From Thermostichus lividus PCC 6715 (GTDB lineage Bacteria; Cyanobacteriota; Cyanobacteriia; Thermosynechococcales; Thermosynechococcaceae), in NCBI RefSeq assembly GCF_002754935.1, contig NZ_CP018092.1:248001-312000 (forward strand): DNA of 64,000 bases, written 5' to 3'. Of the stretch, positions 1-12,610 are shown one piece after another. A model generated the notes under the pieces. The model worked only from the letters and a program-made list of their open reading frames with translations. It ran no database searches and had not been told where the DNA came from. The translations under genes and the position numbers were made by a program. Numbering within the stretch: the stretch's first letter is position 1; each line of letters starts with the position of its first letter.

Positions 1-1
1 C

Positions 2-2736
<2,735 letters not shown>

Positions 2737-2827
2737 CCTAAAAAGTGTAAAAGTAATAGTTTTCGTTTAACAGCCCAATTTGAACCGTCACGTTTGAGCA
2801 CCACTGCGGGGATCACGACAAGCGACT

Positions 2828-3556
2828 ATGGTATCTGTAACACCTCATCCATCTGCTCGGGACACCACCTCCATGCCGACTGTTTCCGCCCCAACCTACC
2901 AACACCAGCTTCATCAAGCCCATCCCGCCCGCACCAACCACTATAGCCTCCGCGACTACTTGCAGTTTAGTAGTGCCCAAGGTAGCATTCGGGATTGGTA
3001 CGATCAGCGAGTCATGCTGGTCACAGAGGACTTTGTCATTGGGTTGGTGCAGGGCTTAGAGGAAGAAGTCGGCTCTGCCTCCGCCTTGGTGATGTACAAA
3101 ATAGGTGAAGAATGGGGCAAACGGGATGCCGTTGTATTTAGGCAACACTTTGAGCAGGATTACAAGCGTGAACTGCGCAAGGCTGCCCTCACCTTCATTC
3201 TAGAAGCATGGTGGTGGCCGTTTACCACCCAAGGCTGGGGCAACTGGGACGTTGATTTGACCGAGCAAAAAAATGGATTTATGTTCATCAATATTTTTGA
3301 CTCGGTGGTAGCGCGCACCCTTGGGGATGTGGGTAAGCCAGTGTGCTACATCTATGCCGGATTGTTTGCGGGCTTCTTTACAGGGCTGATTCAAAAGCCC
3401 TTGGGCTGCATTGAGCTTCAGTGCTATGCCATGGGGGAGACCTACTGCAAGTTTTTAGTCGGGAAACAGGATCGTATTGATGCGGCGGCCTTTTGGCAAA
3501 ACGAGGGTGCCACAGCCCGCGATATTGAAAAGCGTTTACGACAGGGGAGTTGGTGA
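2828..3556 (+). CDS. V4R-domain protein, photosystem assembly (PAP) operon type
   Basis: A 242-residue protein with a low-complexity N-terminus of about 45 residues, then a V4R (4-vinyl reductase) small-molecule-binding domain over roughly residues 130-235. The conserved cysteine pair is seen in CYAMGETYCKF. V4R proteins of this kind (Slr0144 and Slr0147 in Synechocystis) belong to the PAP operon needed for efficient photosystem II assembly, and some bind tetrapyrroles. The next two genes, phycobiliprotein-fold proteins on the same strand, match the Slr0146 type and support that assignment. The ferredoxin-like members of the PAP operon are absent here. The exact ligand cannot be read from the sequence. 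Confidence 0.8.
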   Translation: MVSVTPHPSARDTTSMPTVSAPTYQHQLHQAHPARTNHYSLRDYLQFSSAQGSIRDWYDQRVMLVTEDFVIGLVQGLEEEVGSASALVMYKIGEEWGKRDAVVFRQHFEQDYKRELRKAALTFILEAWWWPFTTQGWGNWDVDLTEQKNGFMFINIFDSVVARTLGDVGKPVCYIYAGLFAGFFTGLIQKPLGCIELQCYAMGETYCKFLVGKQDRIDAAAFWQNEGATARDIEKRLRQGSW

Positions 3557-3630
3557 CCAACAAAGGGTGATGTAGTACCGCGCTGCGGTGATTGTTTTCG
3601 TATTTAGTGTTCATTTGCGAGGATTTTCCT

Positions 3631-4104
3631 ATGTTCCGTCAGTTAAATCACTTGACCGTTAGTGCCGATGGCCGTTATGCCCGTGCGGAAGAGTTGAACT
3701 TCCTGCGGGATTACCTCGCCTCGGTGGACACCCGCATTAGCGCCTACGAAAAAATTCGTGCGGAAGGCGAGCTGATGGCAGATAAGATTCAAGCTAAGCA
3801 AAAGGCTGAAAACCCTCACTGTTTTCACTACGGCCAACGCGACCACAGTGAAATTTGCCGCCGCGATCTGGTAGATGCCATTCGGTTGTCTGCCTCCGCC
3901 ATGCTCTTTGCCGAACTCGATCTGATGCGGGACAACTTCCTGCTGTGGTACCGTACCATCGTCAAAGCCTTTAACTACGAGACCATGGCCGATTCTACCT
4001 ACGGCAAACTGCTGCCCGCGATGATTAAGCAGCTTCTCACACCAGAAGAACAGCGGGTGATGCAGCCCGTTCTTGCCCTTAGTAGTTCAATTTTGTCAAA
4101 ATAG
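3631..4104 (+). CDS. Phycobilisome-domain (phycobiliprotein-fold) protein, copy 1
   Basis: A 157-residue globin-like phycobiliprotein-fold protein that is not a standard phycocyanin or allophycocyanin subunit. The opening MFRQLNHLTVSADGRYA resembles the N-terminal helices of phycobiliproteins. The motif EICRRDLVDAIRL lines up with the bilin-site Cys-x-Arg-Asp of phycobiliproteins, followed by a helix ending in LLWYRTIVKAFN. The start was set at the ATG preceded by GAGG eight bases upstream. It is a tandem paralogue of the next gene and follows the V4R gene, as in the PAP operon (Slr0146-like). Whether a bilin is attached is unknown. Confidence 0.83.
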   Translation: MFRQLNHLTVSADGRYARAEELNFLRDYLASVDTRISAYEKIRAEGELMADKIQAKQKAENPHCFHYGQRDHSEICRRDLVDAIRLSASAMLFAELDLMRDNFLLWYRTIVKAFNYETMADSTYGKLLPAMIKQLLTPEEQRVMQPVLALSSSILSK

Positions 4105-4165
4105 AGACTACAGCAGGCTCTGGAACGCCACCTGCTTGTATTGTCCACTCACTTCACGGAAACAT

Positions 4166-4636
4166 ATGCTGCGCCAACTTGAAAAACTCAGCCTTGAGGC
4201 CGATGGCCGCTATGCTACAGCAGCGGAGCTACAGTTTCTCAAAAACTATCTCGCTACGGCTGAGCAGCGCATTAGTGCCTACGAAAAAATCCGTGATGCC
4301 CAGGAGACGATTATTGAGCAGGTGGATCAACAATTGTGCTCCCCAAACCCCCATATTTTCCGCAAAGGGAATCAAGACTATACCGCAGTCTGTCAGCGCG
4401 ATCGCAGAAGTGTTTTGCGTCTGGCGGCAGCGGCAATGCTTTTTGCCGATTTAGATGCCCTGCGGGATGGGTTCTTGCTCTGGTACCGTACTATTATCAA
4501 GGCCTTTAAGGATGAAAAAGCGGCACGGGTGACGTATCAGGTTCTACCGACGGTCGTGAATCAAGTCCTTGGGGCGGAAGAAGCACCGTTGATGACGCCT
4601 GTCATGGCCTTAACCCAGTCCATTCTTGGGGAATAG
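4166..4636 (+). CDS. Phycobilisome-domain (phycobiliprotein-fold) protein, copy 2
   Basis: A 156-residue paralogue of the preceding gene, 61 bases downstream. It shares the pattern LxLEADGRYATAAELQFLKNYLAT at the N-terminus, RISAYEKIR, and FLLWYRTIIKAF near the C-terminus. The potential bilin site reads AVCQRDRRSVLRL, again Cys-x-Arg-Asp. The start was chosen at the ATG that aligns with copy 1; the upstream ribosome site is weak. The role is inferred from the V4R neighbour and the PAP operon: an assembly or tetrapyrrole-handling factor rather than an antenna subunit. Linker-type genes and cpc or apc genes are not present nearby. Confidence 0.83.
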   Translation: MLRQLEKLSLEADGRYATAAELQFLKNYLATAEQRISAYEKIRDAQETIIEQVDQQLCSPNPHIFRKGNQDYTAVCQRDRRSVLRLAAAAMLFADLDALRDGFLLWYRTIIKAFKDEKAARVTYQVLPTVVNQVLGAEEAPLMTPVMALTQSILGE

Positions 4637-4802
4637 CCAACAGCAAGCCAACGGTTCGGGTCGCCGATCCAAGGGTGCTGCTCTAAATGCGCTACCCTAG
4701 AATCACCAGCAGTGGATCGTTAGGTTAGGTGATGTTTTTCAGCAAGTTCCTTGGCGATCGCCGCTATAGTATTAACTGAGATTCGTTGGGATACACAAGG
4801 GC

Positions 4803-5696
4803 ATGACCATATCGGCGCAATTGCTGCAACGAGCAGACTTGATCGGCACACAGGTAATCACCCGAGACACCGGTCGTAAACTGGGCGTCATTAACCAAGT
4901 TTGGGTGGATATTGATCAGCGGCAAGTGGTCGCCTTGGGTGTGCGCAATACGCTGTTTACCGGCGAGCAACGTTTTGTGCACCTCGACAGCATTAGTCAA
5001 ATTGGGGATGTCATTCTCGTCGAAAACGACGATGCTGTAGAGTCGATGAATACCTATAACTACAGCACCCTCATTGATAACGAGATTGTTACGGAAACTG
5101 GCGAAATTTTGGGTAAGGTACGAGGGTTTAAGTTTGATCCTCAAACTGGGGAAATTACGGATCTAATTTTGGCCTCCCTAGGGCTACCGTGGATTCCAGC
5201 CCAACTCATTAGCACCTACGAGTTGCCGGTCGAGGAAATTGTCAGTACAGGCCCCGATCGCATTATTGTCTTTGAAGGGGCAGAAACCCGCCTCCAACAA
5301 TTGACGGTTGGCCTTCTAGAGCGCGTGGGGCTGGGGGCACCGCCGTGGGAAACCGATGAGGATGAATACTACCAACCGGTGACCCCTAGTAGTAATCAGT
5401 TGCCTTCTGGGGCGCGATCGCCAGTGTATCCTCCCCAGCGCAGCCGGGCTGAGTATCAAGATGATTGGGAAAATACCCCCCGCCGTCGCCGTCGTCAATC
5501 CGAGACCTATGATGACTACGACACCTCCTACGACGAGGAGTACGAGTATGAACCGGTGCGTCCACGGCAAGCCAAGCCGCCGGCTAAGGTTATCCCTGTT
5601 GATTTGCCTGAGTCTGAACCGCAATCAGACCCATGGGAGGAACCCCAGCCCATGAAACTAGAGCAGCGGCAGCAAGAAGAAGAATACGATTATTAG
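4803..5696 (+). CDS. PRC-barrel domain protein with charged disordered tail
   Basis: A 297-residue protein. The first 165 residues hold two PRC-barrel-type repeats (LIGTQVITRDTGRKLGVINQ and LIDNEIVTETGEILGKVRGF), the small beta-barrel first described in the photosynthetic reaction centre H subunit and in RimM. From about residue 185 the chain is low-complexity, rich in Asp, Tyr, Arg, Pro and Glu, and probably disordered. Proteins of this layout are common in cyanobacteria with no settled function. It has its own intergenic space (about 166 bases) after the phycobiliprotein-like pair, so operon membership is uncertain. Confidence 0.8.
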   Translation: MTISAQLLQRADLIGTQVITRDTGRKLGVINQVWVDIDQRQVVALGVRNTLFTGEQRFVHLDSISQIGDVILVENDDAVESMNTYNYSTLIDNEIVTETGEILGKVRGFKFDPQTGEITDLILASLGLPWIPAQLISTYELPVEEIVSTGPDRIIVFEGAETRLQQLTVGLLERVGLGAPPWETDEDEYYQPVTPSSNQLPSGARSPVYPPQRSRAEYQDDWENTPRRRRRQSETYDDYDTSYDEEYEYEPVRPRQAKPPAKVIPVDLPESEPQSDPWEEPQPMKLEQRQQEEEYDY

Positions 5697-5711
5697 CGTT
5701 TGTTATAGTAG

Positions 5712-6144
5712 TGATGTGGGCGGGCTAAAACCCCTCCGCTTTAGCGAGGGGATACAGCCAACTCAGGGGGCTTTAGCCCTCTCTATGCGTTAAACTAGAG
5801 ACGTGGAAAGTAGGCGTATCAACTACGCGAAGAAACATCCTAGTACGGAGAGATCCCGGCAAGTAAGTCACTACCGCTTTGGCGGCAAGCCTAAACCACT
5901 GCAAGCAATGGCAGGATGTTGAGCGTATCGAATTGGCTAGTGTTGAAAAGCGCGAAACCACAAACCGAAACATAAACGTAGTCCCAATAGCAGGAATGCT
6001 TGAGGTGAGTAGGGGGTCTTTGACTGCTCCCACCCGCATTAAGTTGTGGGTGACAGCTCAAGGGAAAAGCGAAGCAATGTGGCTTCAGCCCGTTGCGTAG
6101 CATCCTTTGGGAATCCCCTCTCTTTCAAAGAGGGGAGAAGTCAA
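5712..6144 (+). ncRNA. Orphan structured RNA element with IS200/IS605-like ends (omega/HEARO-type RNA candidate)
   Basis: No convincing protein is encoded between the PRC-barrel gene and the esterase. The stretch is packed with potential stems: GGCT (5723) to AGCC (5756) enclosing a CCCCT/AGGGG hairpin, an AGGG..CCCT hairpin at about 5765, GTAG..CTAC at about 5811, a long-range AACATCC (5834) with GGATGTT (5914), CCGC-TTTG-GCGG at 5874, CTGC..GCAG near 5900, CCCAC..GTGGG near 6030, and a terminal CCCCTCT/AGAGGGG hairpin. The ends look like IS200/IS605 left and right ends. Short motifs recall, from memory, the omega RNA of IscB (HEARO). The nuclease gene is absent. RNA class and direction are inferred. 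Confidence 0.55.
6110..6144 (+). repeat. IS200/IS605-type right-end hairpin closing the 5.7 kb element
   Basis: GAATCCCC, a 7-bp stem CCCCTCT/AGAGGGG with a 7-base loop, then GAGAAGTCAA. Read on the minus strand it becomes TTGACTTCTCCCC, the same pattern as the solitary hairpins at 31.17, 47.63 and 61.46 kb. This is the shape of the right end of TnpB- or IscB-type elements. Confidence 0.5.
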
Positions 6145-6259
6145 CCCGAACAGACCTCTCTGATAGCACGATGGGTTTGGCGATCGGTAAACCTCATGGC
6201 CTTAGGGAGGATTACGTCGAAGGCTTACCTACGTGTGCTGCTCTAGTAAGGGAGATTGA

Positions 6260-6904
6260 ATGCAATATATTTATCTGCATGGGTTTGCCTCGTCACCTCG
6301 CTCTAGTAAAGCACAGTACTTTAGCGATCGCTTCCGGGAGCTGGGGCTGTCCCTGCTCACGCCCGACTTGAATCAGGGGGATTTTTTTCACCTGAGCCTG
6401 AGTCGTCAAATTCAGCAGGTGATCTCTCTGCTGCGGCAGGACGAACTAGTAACGCTGATTGGTTCTAGTTTTGGTGGCTTGACGGCGGCATGGGTGGCGC
6501 AACGCTGCCCCCAAGTCAAGCAGTTATTTTTGCTGGCGCCGGCCTTTGAGTTTGCGGCGCAGTGGCTACCACGTCTGGGGTCTCAGCTTCACCAGTGGCA
6601 GCGTACTGGCTCGTTGGCGGTCTATCATTACACTGAACAGCGGTGGCTGCCCTTGAGCTATGGGTTTGTCGAAGATCTGCAAACCTATGATGACGCAGCC
6701 TTACAACGTCCGGTACCAACGCTCATTTTCCACGGCACTGCGGATGATGTCATTTCAGTGGCGGCCAGTCGCCACTACAATGAAGGGCGGCCTTGGGTGA
6801 GCCGTGTCGAACTTGACAGTGACCATACCCTCACGAATGCCCAAGAGGCGATTTGGGGAATGATGTATCCTTTGATTTATCAGCAGTTACAGGTTGTGTC
6901 CTAA
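6260..6904 (+). CDS. YqiA-like alpha/beta-hydrolase (esterase)
   Basis: A 214-residue alpha/beta hydrolase of the YqiA/YcfP family. It opens with [16 protein letters not shown], the HGF-x-SSP signature of the family. The nucleophile elbow is GSSFGG (about residue 70), the acid is probably in HGTADDVIS, and the histidine is in DSDHTLTN. There is no signal peptide, so it is cytosolic. The true substrate is unknown; family members hydrolyse short acyl esters. A ribosome site GGGAGA precedes the ATG by a few bases. It lies just downstream of the structured element and eight bases before mutS. Confidence 0.85.
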
Positions 6905-6911
6905 GGGTTTC

Positions 6912-9542
6912 ATGTCTGACAGTGGCGATCGCCGATTACCCCATACTGAAATAGATGCACCGACCCTGCGGCTGGGGCGCAATCCGGGACTACAAGTGCG
7001 CCATGATGAAGTTGAGCGTTCGTTGCTGACCCCCATGCTACAGCACTACGCCGATCTGAAGGATGCTTATCCCCAAGCGTTGCTGCTGTACCGCGTCGGT
7101 GACTTTTACGAAACGTTTTTTCAGGATGCCTGTACCGTTGCCCGCGAACTAGAACTGGTTCTAACAGGGAAAGAGGGGGGCAAAGAGGTTGGGCGAGTTG
7201 CCATGGCGGGGATTCCACACCATGCCCTAGAGCGCTATTGCCGCACCCTCATTGAAAAGGGCTATGCCATTGCCATCTGCGATCAAGTCGAAGATCCGGC
7301 GCAAGCCCAAGGACTTGTCAAGCGGGAAGTAACCCATGTGTTTACTCCGGGCACCGTTTTAGATAGCGAATTACTCCAACCCCGCCGCAATAATTTTCTA
7401 GCAGCGGTGATTCTCTCAGGCCATCACTGGGGGCTCGCCTATGCTGATGTCTCAACGGGGGAATTTTGTACCACCCAGGGGGGCGATCGCGCCGATTTAG
7501 TTGCCGAGCTAAATCGCCTCCAACCCGCAGAAGTCCTGATTCCCAGTGAGGCACCCGACCTCAACCGCCTGCTGCGCCCCCACGAGGCCAAAGAGCACCT
7601 GCCAGCAGACTTACCCAACCACTGGTGCTACACCCTGCGATCGCCCCACGACTTTCATGCCGCTGAAGCACGGCAACGCTTGTGTCAGCGCTTTCAGGTG
7701 AAGTCCCTTGAAGGCTTTGGCTGCGAGCATCTCACCCTTGCCACCCGTGCCGCTGGTGGGCTACTGGCCTATTTAGACGAAACCCATCGCCAGCAAACCG
7801 TCCCCCTGCAAAACCTGAGCACCTATTCCCTACAGGAGTACCTCTTCTTAGATCCGCAAACCCGCCGTAACCTCGAGCTCACCCAAACCGTTCGTGATGG
7901 GAGCTTTCAAGGCTCCTTGCTGTGGGCGATTGATCGCACCACGACGGCCATGGGAGGGCGGCTCCTGCGGCGTTGGCTGCTGCAACCCTTACTCGATCTA
8001 GAACAGATTACCGCCCGCCATGATGCTATCGCTGAGTTAATGGCCAACAGTGGCCTGCGGCAAACTCTCCACCGCCATCTTCAAGAAATTTACGATCTCG
8101 AGCGACTCGCAGGACGGGCTGGCTCTGGAACGGCGAATCCCCGCGATCTGGCAGCGTTGCGGGATTCATTTCGCACCTTAGTGTCCCTTGCGGCGGCTCT
8201 GAAGGAGGTACACTCTCCCTACCTGTGTGCCCTAGCAACGGTGCCCGCTGAGATTGAACAGTTAGGGGAAACCCTAGCCGCTGCCCTTGTGGAGCAGCCC
8301 CCCATCAGCTCGACTGAGGGAGGAATTATCCGCAGTGGCGCGTATCCCGATCTCGATCAGCAACGCCTGCAAATTGAGCAGGATCAGCAGTGGATTCTCA
8401 ATCTCGAAGCTCAAGAACGCGAACGCACGGGTATTCCCACCCTCAAAGTGGGCTATACCAAAGTTTCGGGCTACTACCTCAGTGTCTCCCGTGCTAAGGT
8501 GAGCCAAGTCCCCGACACCTACATCCGCAAGCAAACCCTCACCAATGAAGAGCGCTTTATTACCGCTGAACTGAAGGAGCGCGAAGCCCGCTTGATGGGG
8601 GCGCAAAGCCACCTTTTTGAGCTAGAGTACCAGTACTTTGTGCAGTTGCGTGAGCAGGTTGCCGCCCATGCTGCAACGATTCGAACCCTTGCCGCCGCGG
8701 TGGCCGCAGCGGATGCCCTCCTCAGTCTGGCAGAGGTGGCACTGTACCAAGGCTACTGCCGCCCCCAGATGACCCTAGATCGGCGGCTTGAGATTTGCGC
8801 GGGTCGTCATCCCGTGGTCGAGCAACTGCTGCCTGCTGGGTTCTTTGTTCCCAATGAGACACGGCTGGGGGATAAGGCAGACTTAATGATCCTGACCGGC
8901 CCCAATGCCAGCGGCAAAAGTTGTTATCTGCGGCAAGTCGGACTCATTCAACTGCTGGCGCAAATGGGCAGCTATGTGCCTGCCACCCGCGCCACCCTTG
9001 GCCTTTGCGATCGCATCTTTACCCGCGTGGGGGCTGTTGATGATCTGGCGACCGGCCAATCCACCTTTATGGTGGAAATGAACGAAACCGCCAACATTCT
9101 TAACCATGCGGGGTCGCAGTCGTTGGTCTTGCTCGATGAAATTGGTCGCGGTACCGCTACGTTTGATGGCTTGGCGATCGCGTGGTCTGTGGCAGAATAT
9201 TTGGCGACAACGCTGCGATCGCGTACGATTTTTGCCACCCACTACCACGAACTGAATCAACTGGCCTCGCTGTTGCCAAACGTGGCCAACTTCCAAGTGG
9301 TGGTGAAGGAACTACCGGAGGAAATTATTTTTCTGCACCAAGTGAAACCTGGTGGTGCCGATCGCTCCTATGGGATCGAAGCAGGGCGTTTAGCGGGCTT
9401 GCCTCCCGTCGTAATTCAGCGGGCACGGCAGGTGATGCAACAAATTGAAAAGCACAGCAAAATTGCGGTTGGCTTGCGCAAAAGTCCACTATACGACCCA
9501 CAGACCGCCGCAGTACCAGATCAAGGAGAACTCCCCTTTTGA
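6912..9542 (+). CDS. mutS: DNA mismatch repair protein MutS
   Basis: Mismatch-recognition ATPase, 876 residues from the ATG chosen here. An in-frame TTG six codons upstream is less likely. In order: the mismatch-binding domain with [16 protein letters not shown] (F-x-E mismatch contact), connector, lever and clamp domains, then the ABC ATPase with Walker [26 protein letters not shown], Walker [18 protein letters not shown] and THYHEL. The C-terminus ends in a short tail after [10 protein letters not shown]. The first 30 residues before the mismatch domain are poorly conserved. Length and motifs are complete. Confidence 0.96.
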
Positions 9543-9592
9543 TCCCATTCGTTAGAATTGAAAATGTAACGTTTTGTTAACTAGGGGGATCC

Positions 9593-10822
9593 GTGATTGT
9601 TCTGATGAAGTTACCCCCACCGCTGCGGCATACCCTCCTGAAGGTCTTGCTAGCGGGGCTGTTATTTTGGTCGAGCATTGCAGCACTGCTGCCGACACTG
9701 CCCCTATACATTGCTGCCCAAGGAGGCAGCCCCCACCAAGTGGGGATTGTCATGGGTGCCTTTGCTGTTGGCTTAATCGTTTCTCGGTCGTGGCTAGGCC
9801 CATTGGCGGACAACCGCGGGCGCAAAATTACGCTCTTGATTGGCTTGGCGGTAGCGGCGATCGCCCCCCTTTTTTACATGGTCAGTCATAATGTGCCCCT
9901 CCTGATTGCGGTGCGCCTCCTGCATGGTGTAAGCATCGCAGGCTTTACCACAGGTTACATGGCGCTCGTGACCGATATTGCCCCACCTCGCCATCGCGGG
10001 GAAATCATTGGTTACACCAGCTTAGTCCATCCCATTGGGGTGGCCGTGGGGCCGAGTTTGGGCAGTTGGCTTCAGCACGCCTATGGCGATAACTGGGTCT
10101 TTGTCGTGGCCAGCGCCTTAGCGACCTTGGGAATCATTGCGGCGGCGGGGGTTCGCCCCGTTGCCCTAACCTCAGAGGGGATCGCTACTGATAACCATTC
10201 CAAACCCCTATTTTGGCGACTCTTGCTCTCAGAGCGGTTGCGGATTCCCACCCTAGTGATGCTCAGCGTGGGTCTCACCTTCGGCACGATTGCCACCTTT
10301 ATTCCCCTCTTTATTGCTGCCGAACGGATCGATCTCTCTGCTGGCGTGTTCTACACCGCCGCGGCGATCGCCAGCTTTATGGGGCGGGTGGCCACCGGCT
10401 CAGCCTCCGATCGCTGGGGACGCGGCATTTTCATCTCCAGTAGTCTGGTGTGTTACGTCGTGTCTATGGTGTTACTGGCCCAAGCCGAAACACCCTTAGA
10501 CCTTTTGTGGGCAGCCATCCTTGAAGGATTAGCCGGTGGCGTACTCATTCCCATGGTGGCGGCCTTAATGGCCGATCGCTCCCATCCTAACGAGCGGGGA
10601 CGAGTCCTCAGCCTTAGCCTCGGCGGGTTTGACCTAGGGATGGCCTTGGCAGGACCGCTGCTCGGGGTCTTAATTGTGCCCCTCGGCTACCGCATTCTCT
10701 TTCGCATGGCCGCAGGGTTTAGTTTGCTAGGGCTAACCGTCTTTTTAACCGCTAGCAGCAAAAATATACCGGATTCCCTACGCTTTGCCCTCGGCATGGG
10801 GCGCGATCGCTATGCCCTCTAG
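9593..10822 (+). CDS. MFS drug-type efflux transporter
   Basis: About 409 residues with 12 hydrophobic segments in two six-helix halves, a major facilitator of the inner membrane. The loop-2/3 signature is present as GPLADNRGRKITLLIGLA, and motif C-like GPSLGSWL in helix 5 is typical of the drug/H+ antiporter branch. The substrate cannot be predicted. GTG was taken as the start, five bases after AGGGGG; an ATG four codons later is equally possible. It stands alone between mutS and the ABC1 kinase. Confidence 0.85.
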   Translation: MIVLMKLPPPLRHTLLKVLLAGLLFWSSIAALLPTLPLYIAAQGGSPHQVGIVMGAFAVGLIVSRSWLGPLADNRGRKITLLIGLAVAAIAPLFYMVSHNVPLLIAVRLLHGVSIAGFTTGYMALVTDIAPPRHRGEIIGYTSLVHPIGVAVGPSLGSWLQHAYGDNWVFVVASALATLGIIAAAGVRPVALTSEGIATDNHSKPLFWRLLLSERLRIPTLVMLSVGLTFGTIATFIPLFIAAERIDLSAGVFYTAAAIASFMGRVATGSASDRWGRGIFISSSLVCYVVSMVLLAQAETPLDLLWAAILEGLAGGVLIPMVAALMADRSHPNERGRVLSLSLGGFDLGMALAGPLLGVLIVPLGYRILFRMAAGFSLLGLTVFLTASSKNIPDSLRFALGMGRDRYAL

Positions 10823-10835
10823 GAGGCCATTGACG

Positions 10836-12610
10836 ATGATTCTTCGCGATTCACAAGGGATTCGTTACAATTTGTTGAGATCACCCACTACAGAACGCCG
10901 CGTGTCAACTCCAGCTTCGGTTACCTTTATGCCCACAGGCAAATCCTATCGGTGGAATCGAGAACACTACTCGAAGACTCGCCGCTTTTTTGATATTTGG
11001 TTCTTTGTCTGGCGATTTCTGGGCGGTCGCTGGCTGTTGGGAAAGGCATGGAGTTACTGGGGGGGATGACCGATGCCAAACGCGCCGCTCGCCGTCGCGC
11101 CCAAGCCATCTGGATTCGGGAAACCTTTCTCGACCTAGGCCCAACCTTTATTAAACTCGGGCAACTCTTCTCCACCCGCGCCGATCTCTTTCCCACCGAA
11201 TACGTCGAAGAACTCAGTAAGCTTCAGGATCGGGTGCCCGCCTTTAGCTACGACCTTGTAGAAAAAATCATCTACGAAGACTTTGGCCGCCGCATTCCCG
11301 AACTCTTCCGCAGCTTTGACCCCATTCCCATGGCCGCTGCCAGCCTCGGCCAAGTTCACAAAGCCCAACTTGTCTCTGGCGAAGAAGTCGTGGTCAAAGT
11401 ACAGCGCCCCGGATTACGGCAACTCTTCGACATTGATCTGGCCATTCTCAAAGGCATTACCCGGTATTTCCAAAACCATCCCAAATGGGGGCAAGGTCGC
11501 GACTGGATGGGCATTTATGAGGAGTGCTGCCGCATCCTTTACGAGGAGATTGACTACCTCAACGAGGGACGTAACGCCGATACTTTTCGGCGTAACTTTC
11601 GGGATCGCGAGTGGGTCTGTGTTCCGCGGGTCTATTGGCGGTATACCTCACTGCGGGTACTCACCCTTGAATACTTGCCCGGAATTAAAATTAGTCACTA
11701 CGAGGCGCTTGAGGCAGCAGGATTAGACCGCAAGCGCTTAGCTGAGCTAGGGGCCAAAGCCTACCTCTACCAAGTGCTCAACGATGGCTTCTTTCACGCT
11801 GACCCCCATCCGGGCAATATTGCCGTTAGCCCCGGCGGCCAACTGATTTTCTATGACTTTGGTATGATGGGTCGCATCCAAGCGGTCACCCGCGACAAAT
11901 TACTCAGAACATTTTTGAGTATTGCCCAGCGGGATGGTGAGCAGGTGGTACAGTCCCTAATTGAGTTGGGGGCGTTGGTTCCCACTGGGGACATAGGGCC
12001 GGTGCGTCGCTCGATTCAATATCTTCTAGACAACTTTATGGATCAACCCTTCGAGGTGCAGTCCGTTGCCCAAATTAGCGATGATCTCTACGAAATTGCC
12101 TACGATCAACCGTTTCGCTTTCCCGCTACCTTTACCTTTGTCATGCGAGCATTTTCGACCCTAGAAGGGGTAGGCAAAGGACTCGACCAAGACTTTAACT
12201 TTATGCAAGTTGCTCAACCCTTTGCGAGTGAACTGATGACCAACGGAAATTTCTCAGACCCCAACAATGGCAGTCTCTTTTCCGAGATCAGCCGCCAAGC
12301 TGCCCAAGTGGGCACCAGTGCCATTGGCCTGCCCCGTCGCCTCGACGAAGTGCTCGATAAACTGGAAAATGGAGATCTACGGCTACGGGTACGCTCTAGT
12401 GAAAGCGACCGCATTTTACGACGCTTAAGTAATATTAATTTAGGCTTAAACTACGTTGTTCTCATTGGCAGCTTTTCACTGGCGGCAACGATTCTACTGG
12501 TCAACCAGTATATTTTGTTAGCGGGTGTGGCAGCCGCCTTAGCGGTATGGTTGGGTATCCTCTATTGGCGACTCATGCTTAAACTCGATAAGTATGAAAA
12601 AATGTTTTAG
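10836..12610 (+). CDS. ABC1/UbiB-family atypical kinase (frameshifted as sequenced)
   Basis: Atypical kinase of the ABC1K/UbiB family; in cyanobacteria and plastids these affect prenylquinone and redox homeostasis. The main body has LGPTFIKLGQLFSTR (the KxGQ motif), AAASLGQVHKAQL, VVVKVQRPG, ADPHPGNIAV and YDFGMMG, then two C-terminal membrane segments. The family N-terminus (YRWNREHYSKTRRFFDIW..WSYWGG) is encoded from the ATG at 10836, which has AGGAGG upstream, but in another frame. The frames meet at a run of seven G at 11059-11065. One extra G restores WSYWGGMTDAKRAARRR and a 591-residue protein. Confidence 0.85.

Follow-up and report, generated by a model that had tools for sequence, protein, structure and literature searches.

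Two adjacent genes of a thermophilic cyanobacterium encode small proteins that resemble phycobiliproteins, and the question is whether these are antenna subunits or whether each of them carries a bilin for a different task. The window, i.e., the whole stretch of 64,000 nucleotides that was analyzed, comprises bases 248001-312000 of a 2.66 Mb Thermosynechococcus genome that consists of a single contig (G000). The two genes, here named BBAG1 and BBAG2, and their neighbors are listed in Table 1. Both ORFs begin with an ATG codon at the first position given, and longer frames with a TTG start also exist. An earlier note on this DNA had described two tandem ORFs with a phycobiliprotein fold behind a V4R gene, and this description was confirmed: the V4R gene was found by Pfam, the Phycobilisome domain (PF00502) was above the cut-off in both proteins, and BBAG1 and BBAG2 are 50% identical (79/157 columns). 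The note had also placed a bilin-type Cys-x-Arg-Asp motif at the bilin site of both, which HMMER alignments to allophycocyanins verified in register for residues 76-79. For BBAG2, C76-R78-D79 coincided with the motif of ApcA in a clear match (E 1.5e-9); the same residues of BBAG1 were also aligned to the motif, the best match to a solved allophycocyanin being a weak one to ApcB3 (E 0.004). The role of the motif residues in bilin binding has been described in PMC10151467. Within the 52 ATG-started frames of at least 150 aa in the window (17,311 residues), C-x-R-D was observed twice versus 0.7 occurrences expected by composition; both lie at residue 76 of BBAG1 and BBAG2, and a chance origin of the motif was therefore rejected.

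Table 1. Positions of the tandem pair, its motifs and its neighbors in the window.
Feature	Position	Strand	Basis
V4R-A gene (Slr0144 type), cassette copy	2828..3556	+	Pfam V4R, E 1.7e-21
BBAG1, 157 aa	3631..4104	+	PF00502, E 7e-9; BBAG1 clade, n=13, support 100/99
Cys76-Arg-Arg78-Asp79 of BBAG1	3856..3867	+	Sequence; CxRD in 13/13 BBAG1 rows
BBAG2, 156 aa	4166..4636	+	PF00502, E 1.1e-18; BBAG2 group, n=13, support 75/85
Cys76-Gln-Arg78-Asp79 of BBAG2	4391..4402	+	Sequence; CxRD in 13/13 BBAG2 rows
PRC-barrel gene, neighbor; putative cassette member	4803..5696	+	Pfam PRC, E 6.3e-24

The surroundings of the pair were also inspected. Two promoter-like sites versus 1.8 in shuffled sequences and five terminator-like sites versus 2.6 (sd 1.8) were counted, and such counts say nothing firm about transcription. 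Repeats around the pair were limited to one weak family with two copies of 19 nt, and no RNA family of Rfam exceeded its gathering score at positions 1-12000 of the window. The PRC-barrel gene is found downstream of the pair in 10/11 Thermosynechococcus loci and is absent there in G096, G066 and G112. A frame of 88 aa (MRVGAVKDPLL...) at 5773-6039, at least 0.6 kb 3' of the pair, has a near-identical counterpart at 11101-11367 of locus L018, in the vicinity of this genome's main Pap operon.

Monomer models, based on an alignment of eight rows, were of middling quality (mean pLDDT 71.9 for BBAG1 and 61.9 for BBAG2) and placed Cys76 close to the beginning of a long helix that spans residues 73-93. 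Within the best 50 Foldseek rows for each model, all matches were phycobiliproteins, with smURFP among the rows of BBAG2. The matches with a probability of 1.00 were phycobiliproteins with E-values of about 1e-3 for BBAG1 and 4e-5 for BBAG2; among the matches listed, E was below 0.001 for 39 of BBAG2 and for none of BBAG1. VIA-align superimposed BBAG1 on the bilin domain of ApcE (rmsd 3.5, 140 aligned) and on smURFP (rmsd 2.4, 120 aligned) with a Z of 13.5 in both cases, which is no strong proof because mostly helical models without a clear match typically reach a best Z of 14. The domain searches and the models agree on a phycobilisome-fold globin domain in both proteins.

A PF00502 search of the genome itself yielded, in addition to the pair, six antenna subunits, ApcE in two pieces, and one further short protein, which is encoded at 2.297 Mb and flanked by two V4R genes; the names of the antenna subunits are those that we take to apply. 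Antenna equivalog models were not passed by the pair, which scored at most 40.2 bits versus cut-offs of at least 225. In a quick tree, a branch with an SH-aLRT of 100 separated 94 BBAGs, all of them cyanobacterial, from six antenna rows, and the pair grouped with the cluster-associated BBAGs. On the basis of the scores, the tree and the antenna set already present in the genome, an identity as antenna subunits was rejected, and the non-antenna status that the earlier note had assigned was thus borne out.

The bilin biosynthesis-associated globins (BBAGs) were published as a family in 2023, with slr0149 as a cyanobacterial example and with functions that are not yet known (PMC10151467). The same gene has been termed phycobiliprotein-related, within slr0144-0152 (PMC6002478). 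In the present analysis, slr names were assigned by gene order. The BBAG profiles were the best scorers on the pair, the s0146 profile scored lower, and neither s0145 nor V4R-B adjoins the pair. Slr0146-type rows contained CxRD at the aligned site in 0/53 cases, one row having C-x-R-D elsewhere. Orthology to Slr0146 was rejected on the grounds of the profile scores and the missing motif. According to the earlier note, Slr0146 is the protein of this type that such operons usually contain, a view that was not confirmed: the sampled Pap clusters commonly encode an Slr0146-type protein plus a separate Slr0149-type BBAG, and the pair corresponds to the latter. Judged from its sequences, the pair thus consists of cyanobacterial BBAGs of the Slr0149 type.

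The pair is not part of the main Pap operon, which lies at 2.29-2.30 Mb of the same genome and comprises genes for V4RA, s0145, s0146, V4RB, a 2Fe-2S protein, a TPR protein and a kinase. The gene set of V4R-A, s0145, s0146, V4R-B and the Fe-S protein is not present together in the cassette of the window, where only V4R-A and the BBAGs are found. With two V4R genes and an Fe-S protein as the mark of a cluster, V4R-A adjoins the pair, and V4R-B and the Fe-S protein are located at the distant main operon only. A search of 11 Thermosynechococcus genomes yielded no BBAG at the main operon in any of them. In all 11, the Fe-S gene is single and is preceded, at a distance of about 1.1-1.2 kb, by the s0146 gene; the other BBAG1 matches at E 1e-5 were the pair elsewhere and nothing more. 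The proposed tie to the operon holds for the family, which is linked to the Pap cluster, but not for the location, as the pair resides in a separate cassette and the main operon lacks a BBAG. The Slr0146-type gene of this genome (L018 6921-7430, about 2296920-2297430) is split over two frames, whereas it is open in 10 congeners (164 codons); either a sequencing error or a broken gene accounts for this. A transposase-like frame, presumably of the TnpB type, is located at L018 481-1743.

The comparison was based on 80 loci from 79 genomes, hand-picked among the strongest matches, and the counts of gene order and of Cys and Trp describe that sample; some loci end at contig ends, so that neighbors could be missed. 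Three genera, namely Thermosynechococcus and those to which G066 and G112 belong, were sampled at 13 loci, and the cassette V4RA-BBAG1-BBAG2 was present in 13/13 of these versus 0/68 of the other loci. In the single-BBAG loci of other genomes (n=68), the Fe-S gene directly precedes the BBAG in 45 cases, and the order V4RB, Fe-S, BBAG, TPR, as in the slr0147-slr0151 stretch, was found in 19. At E 1e-10, two matches were detected in 14 of the 29 genomes of the family, one in 13 and none in 2, some genomes being incomplete. The fourteenth genome with two matches, G187, contains its BBAGs in two separate full Pap clusters. These clusters (L061, L062) each include a BBAG with CxRD, yet the genome has just one other PF00502 match. 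In the draft genome G146, V4RA shares a contig with a lone BBAG, and s0146 and V4RB are on a different contig, which is possibly an intermediate arrangement. The search from which the loci were picked gave matches in 339/388 genomes, many maybe through antenna proteins alone, and is no count of BBAGs.

The history of the cassette was reconstructed from trees. The 26 pair rows grouped together with a support of 94/92 in a careful tree (48 rows) and of 98 in the quick tree (100 rows). In the careful tree, BBAG1 formed a clade of 13 with high support, and BBAG2 formed a weakly supported group of 13, within which the 11 Thermosynechococcus rows had a support of 100/99 (Table 1 gives the values for the two groups). 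The cassette V4R-A copies of the 13 loci were a single clade in a quick tree (SH-aLRT 97), placed next to the V4R-A of the main operon with a support of 80. From these groupings it follows that V4R-A and BBAG were, as far as the trees tell, doubled before the three genera split. In the 11 Thermosynechococcus genomes, the mean dN/dS was 0.090 for BBAG1 (range 0.022-0.338; 55 pairs) and 0.085 for BBAG2 (range 0.028-0.195; 53 of 55 pairs, two with dS of at most 0.05 being omitted); the values are rough, as dS exceeded 1 in most of the ten comparisons printed per window gene. Both copies are under purifying selection. A recent or decaying duplicate was rejected, because the split is older than the three genera and dN/dS is low.

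The motif was retained in both copies after duplication, as the earlier note had proposed: CxRD was found in 26/26 pair rows from 13 genomes. The other sampled BBAGs (n=68) were not uniform. CxRD was present in 21, WxRD in 25, and Trp with a changed Arg in 16; of the remainder, three had the Cys with one other change, and three had another residue instead of Cys with Arg and Asp kept. Since only 21/68 other BBAGs have CxRD, its retention in the pair is informative. Trp thus replaces the bilin Cys in 41/94 sampled BBAG rows, all of them among the 68 outside the pair (BBAG rows of L069-L128). In these 41, the Asp at +3 was retained in every row and the Arg at +2 in 25, so that Asp79, unlike the Cys, is nearly fixed across the sampled BBAGs. 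The frequent Trp suggests that the family can manage without a covalent bilin. On the quick tree, the distribution of Trp needs at least four changes. The order V4R, Fe-S, BBAG was absent in 40/41 Trp rows versus 4/24 Cys rows; with only four independent pairs on the tree, this association is indistinguishable from shared descent. The presence of CxRD in both BBAGs of G187, with one other PF00502 match in that genome, speaks against the motif being a leftover from antenna proteins. CXRD has been noted in some cyanobacterial BBAGs (PMC10151467); the main text of that paper contains no word beginning with Trp. The change from Cys to Trp offers a natural control: if Trp-type relatives keep their partners without a covalent bilin, the thioether link is dispensable.

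In phycobiliproteins, the subunit contact involves Asp13 and Arg93; like other statements on which residues make contacts or bind ligands in these proteins, those on the motif excepted, this is general background. The contact Arg was kept as R85 in 13/13 BBAG1 and 13/13 BBAG2 rows, and Arg is also found in 6/6 antenna rows. The Asp column (column 11) contained Glu in 13/13 BBAG2 rows and Val in 8/13 BBAG1 rows, with Ser in the copy of the window. In the antenna rows, the contact Asp falls in column 11 and not at Asp13 of the BBAGs. Because the Arg is kept but the Asp column is Glu or mostly Val, the alignments give mixed evidence for a phycobiliprotein-like pairing of BBAG1 with BBAG2.

We propose that Thermosynechococcus and two related genera share an ancestor in which a BBAG became located beside a V4R-A copy outside the Pap operon and was doubled, whereas the main operon lacks one. 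Via Cys76, each copy would bind a linear tetrapyrrole, for which phycocyanobilin and biliverdin are the likeliest candidates, and Arg78 and Asp79 would be its hydrogen-bond partners, as in phycobiliproteins and in the published BBAG-1 and BBAG-3. The covalent attachment is inferred for each copy. The pair, the V4R proteins and the 2Fe-2S protein of the main operon would form a thylakoid complex like Slr0144-Slr0149; as the pair lies outside the main operon, this membership is suggested by analogy. The bilin would act in assembling or repairing photosystems, as a sensor or as a cofactor, and not as an antenna pigment. The pairing of BBAG1 with BBAG2 is the least certain step. As a whole, this explanation of twin covalent bilin carriers in such a complex seems to us slightly better than an even bet. 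Published background is as follows. Bilin binding has been published for BBAG-1, -2 and -3; no lyase is needed for the binding to BBAG-1 and BBAG-3, the former is poorly chromophorylated, and the fluorescence of BBAGs is weak (PMC10151467). The literature examined contains no report of bilin binding by any cyanobacterial BBAG. Slr0144-Slr0149 are reported to interact on the thylakoid, as checked with tagged Slr0149 (PMC9880817). The Pap proteins are said to stabilize intermediates of photosystem II, and photosystem I, rather than II, was proposed in early operon work (PMC4853703). PMC10151467 warns that the function of cyanobacterial BBAGs is not essential and maybe not conserved, and that assembly phenotypes perhaps stem from the adjacent slr0150-0152.

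Several other explanations have to be weighed. The pair might receive a loosely held bilin or another tetrapyrrole, such as a chlorophyll precursor or breakdown product, from V4R, with a different role for the Cys and with the Trp types as the same machine minus the thioether. The abundance of Trp at the Cys site, with Asp always and Arg often retained, speaks for this, as does the V4R family itself, which has been tied to chlorophyll precursors and other ligands of small size and hydrophobic nature (PMC13326532); the invariant CxRD of the pair and the bilin binding of the CxRD-bearing BBAG-1 and BBAG-3 (PMC10151467) speak against it, and we regard it as possible but doubtful. A more far-reaching proposal is an obligate two-bilin BBAG1:BBAG2 heterodimer, a second independent alpha/beta split that would serve pigment sensing or handling in photosystem assembly, with the Trp-type relatives elsewhere as the non-covalent version of the same assembly factor. 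It is less probable because the subunit-contact Asp is not kept in BBAG1, and we consider it unlikely.

That one copy is merely redundant, without a role of its own, would agree with the 50% identity, with the shared motif, and with one copy or none being sufficient in other genera. Both copies have nevertheless been kept in all 13 loci since before the three genera split, with low dN/dS, and this explanation is distinctly improbable. Least credible of all, and hardly worth entertaining, are minor antenna or phycobilisome core subunits: allophycocyanins and the bilin domain of ApcE are indeed the best sequence and fold matches, but the bit scores, the separating branch, the antenna subunits and ApcE already encoded in the genome, and the BBAGs retained by G187 with a single other PF00502 match all oppose it.

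When the preferred twin-carrier explanation is set beside known systems, the closest is the usual cyanobacterial BBAG, Slr0149 of Synechocystis (PMC10151467), which shares the phycobilisome fold outside the antenna clade, the V4R neighbor and CxRD; BBAGs that follow the Fe-S gene in Pap clusters have the same tree position as the pair. In contrast to these, the pair is a tandem duplicate accompanied by a second V4R-A, distant from the Fe-S and V4R-B genes, and, unlike the other sampled BBAGs with their frequent Trp, it has CxRD throughout. The BBAG family is already known, and BBAG duplication has been mentioned in general terms in print; neither the tandem-pair V4R-A cassette nor the Cys/Trp split was found in the main texts of the literature examined. 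BBAG-1 and BBAG-3 of non-photosynthetic bacteria (PMC10151467), compared by description only, resemble the pair in CXRD and in V4R and Fe-S partners, but the cassette of the window contains neither a heme oxygenase nor a bilin reductase. The Slr0146-type Pap protein has the same fold and belongs to the same operon family, yet it lacks CxRD at the aligned site and forms a set of its own when rows are assigned by their best profile score. Allophycocyanin and phycocyanin subunits share the fold, the motif in register and the Arg at the R93 position, but differ at Trp106 and Tyr39, which are present in 91/91 BBAG rows (four groups), where the antenna rows have Gly (6/6) and Ala (5/6). A thermophile with two conserved CxRD copies in a three-gene cassette thus offers a compact system for studying bilin carriage, pairing, and the role of a bilin in photosystem assembly.
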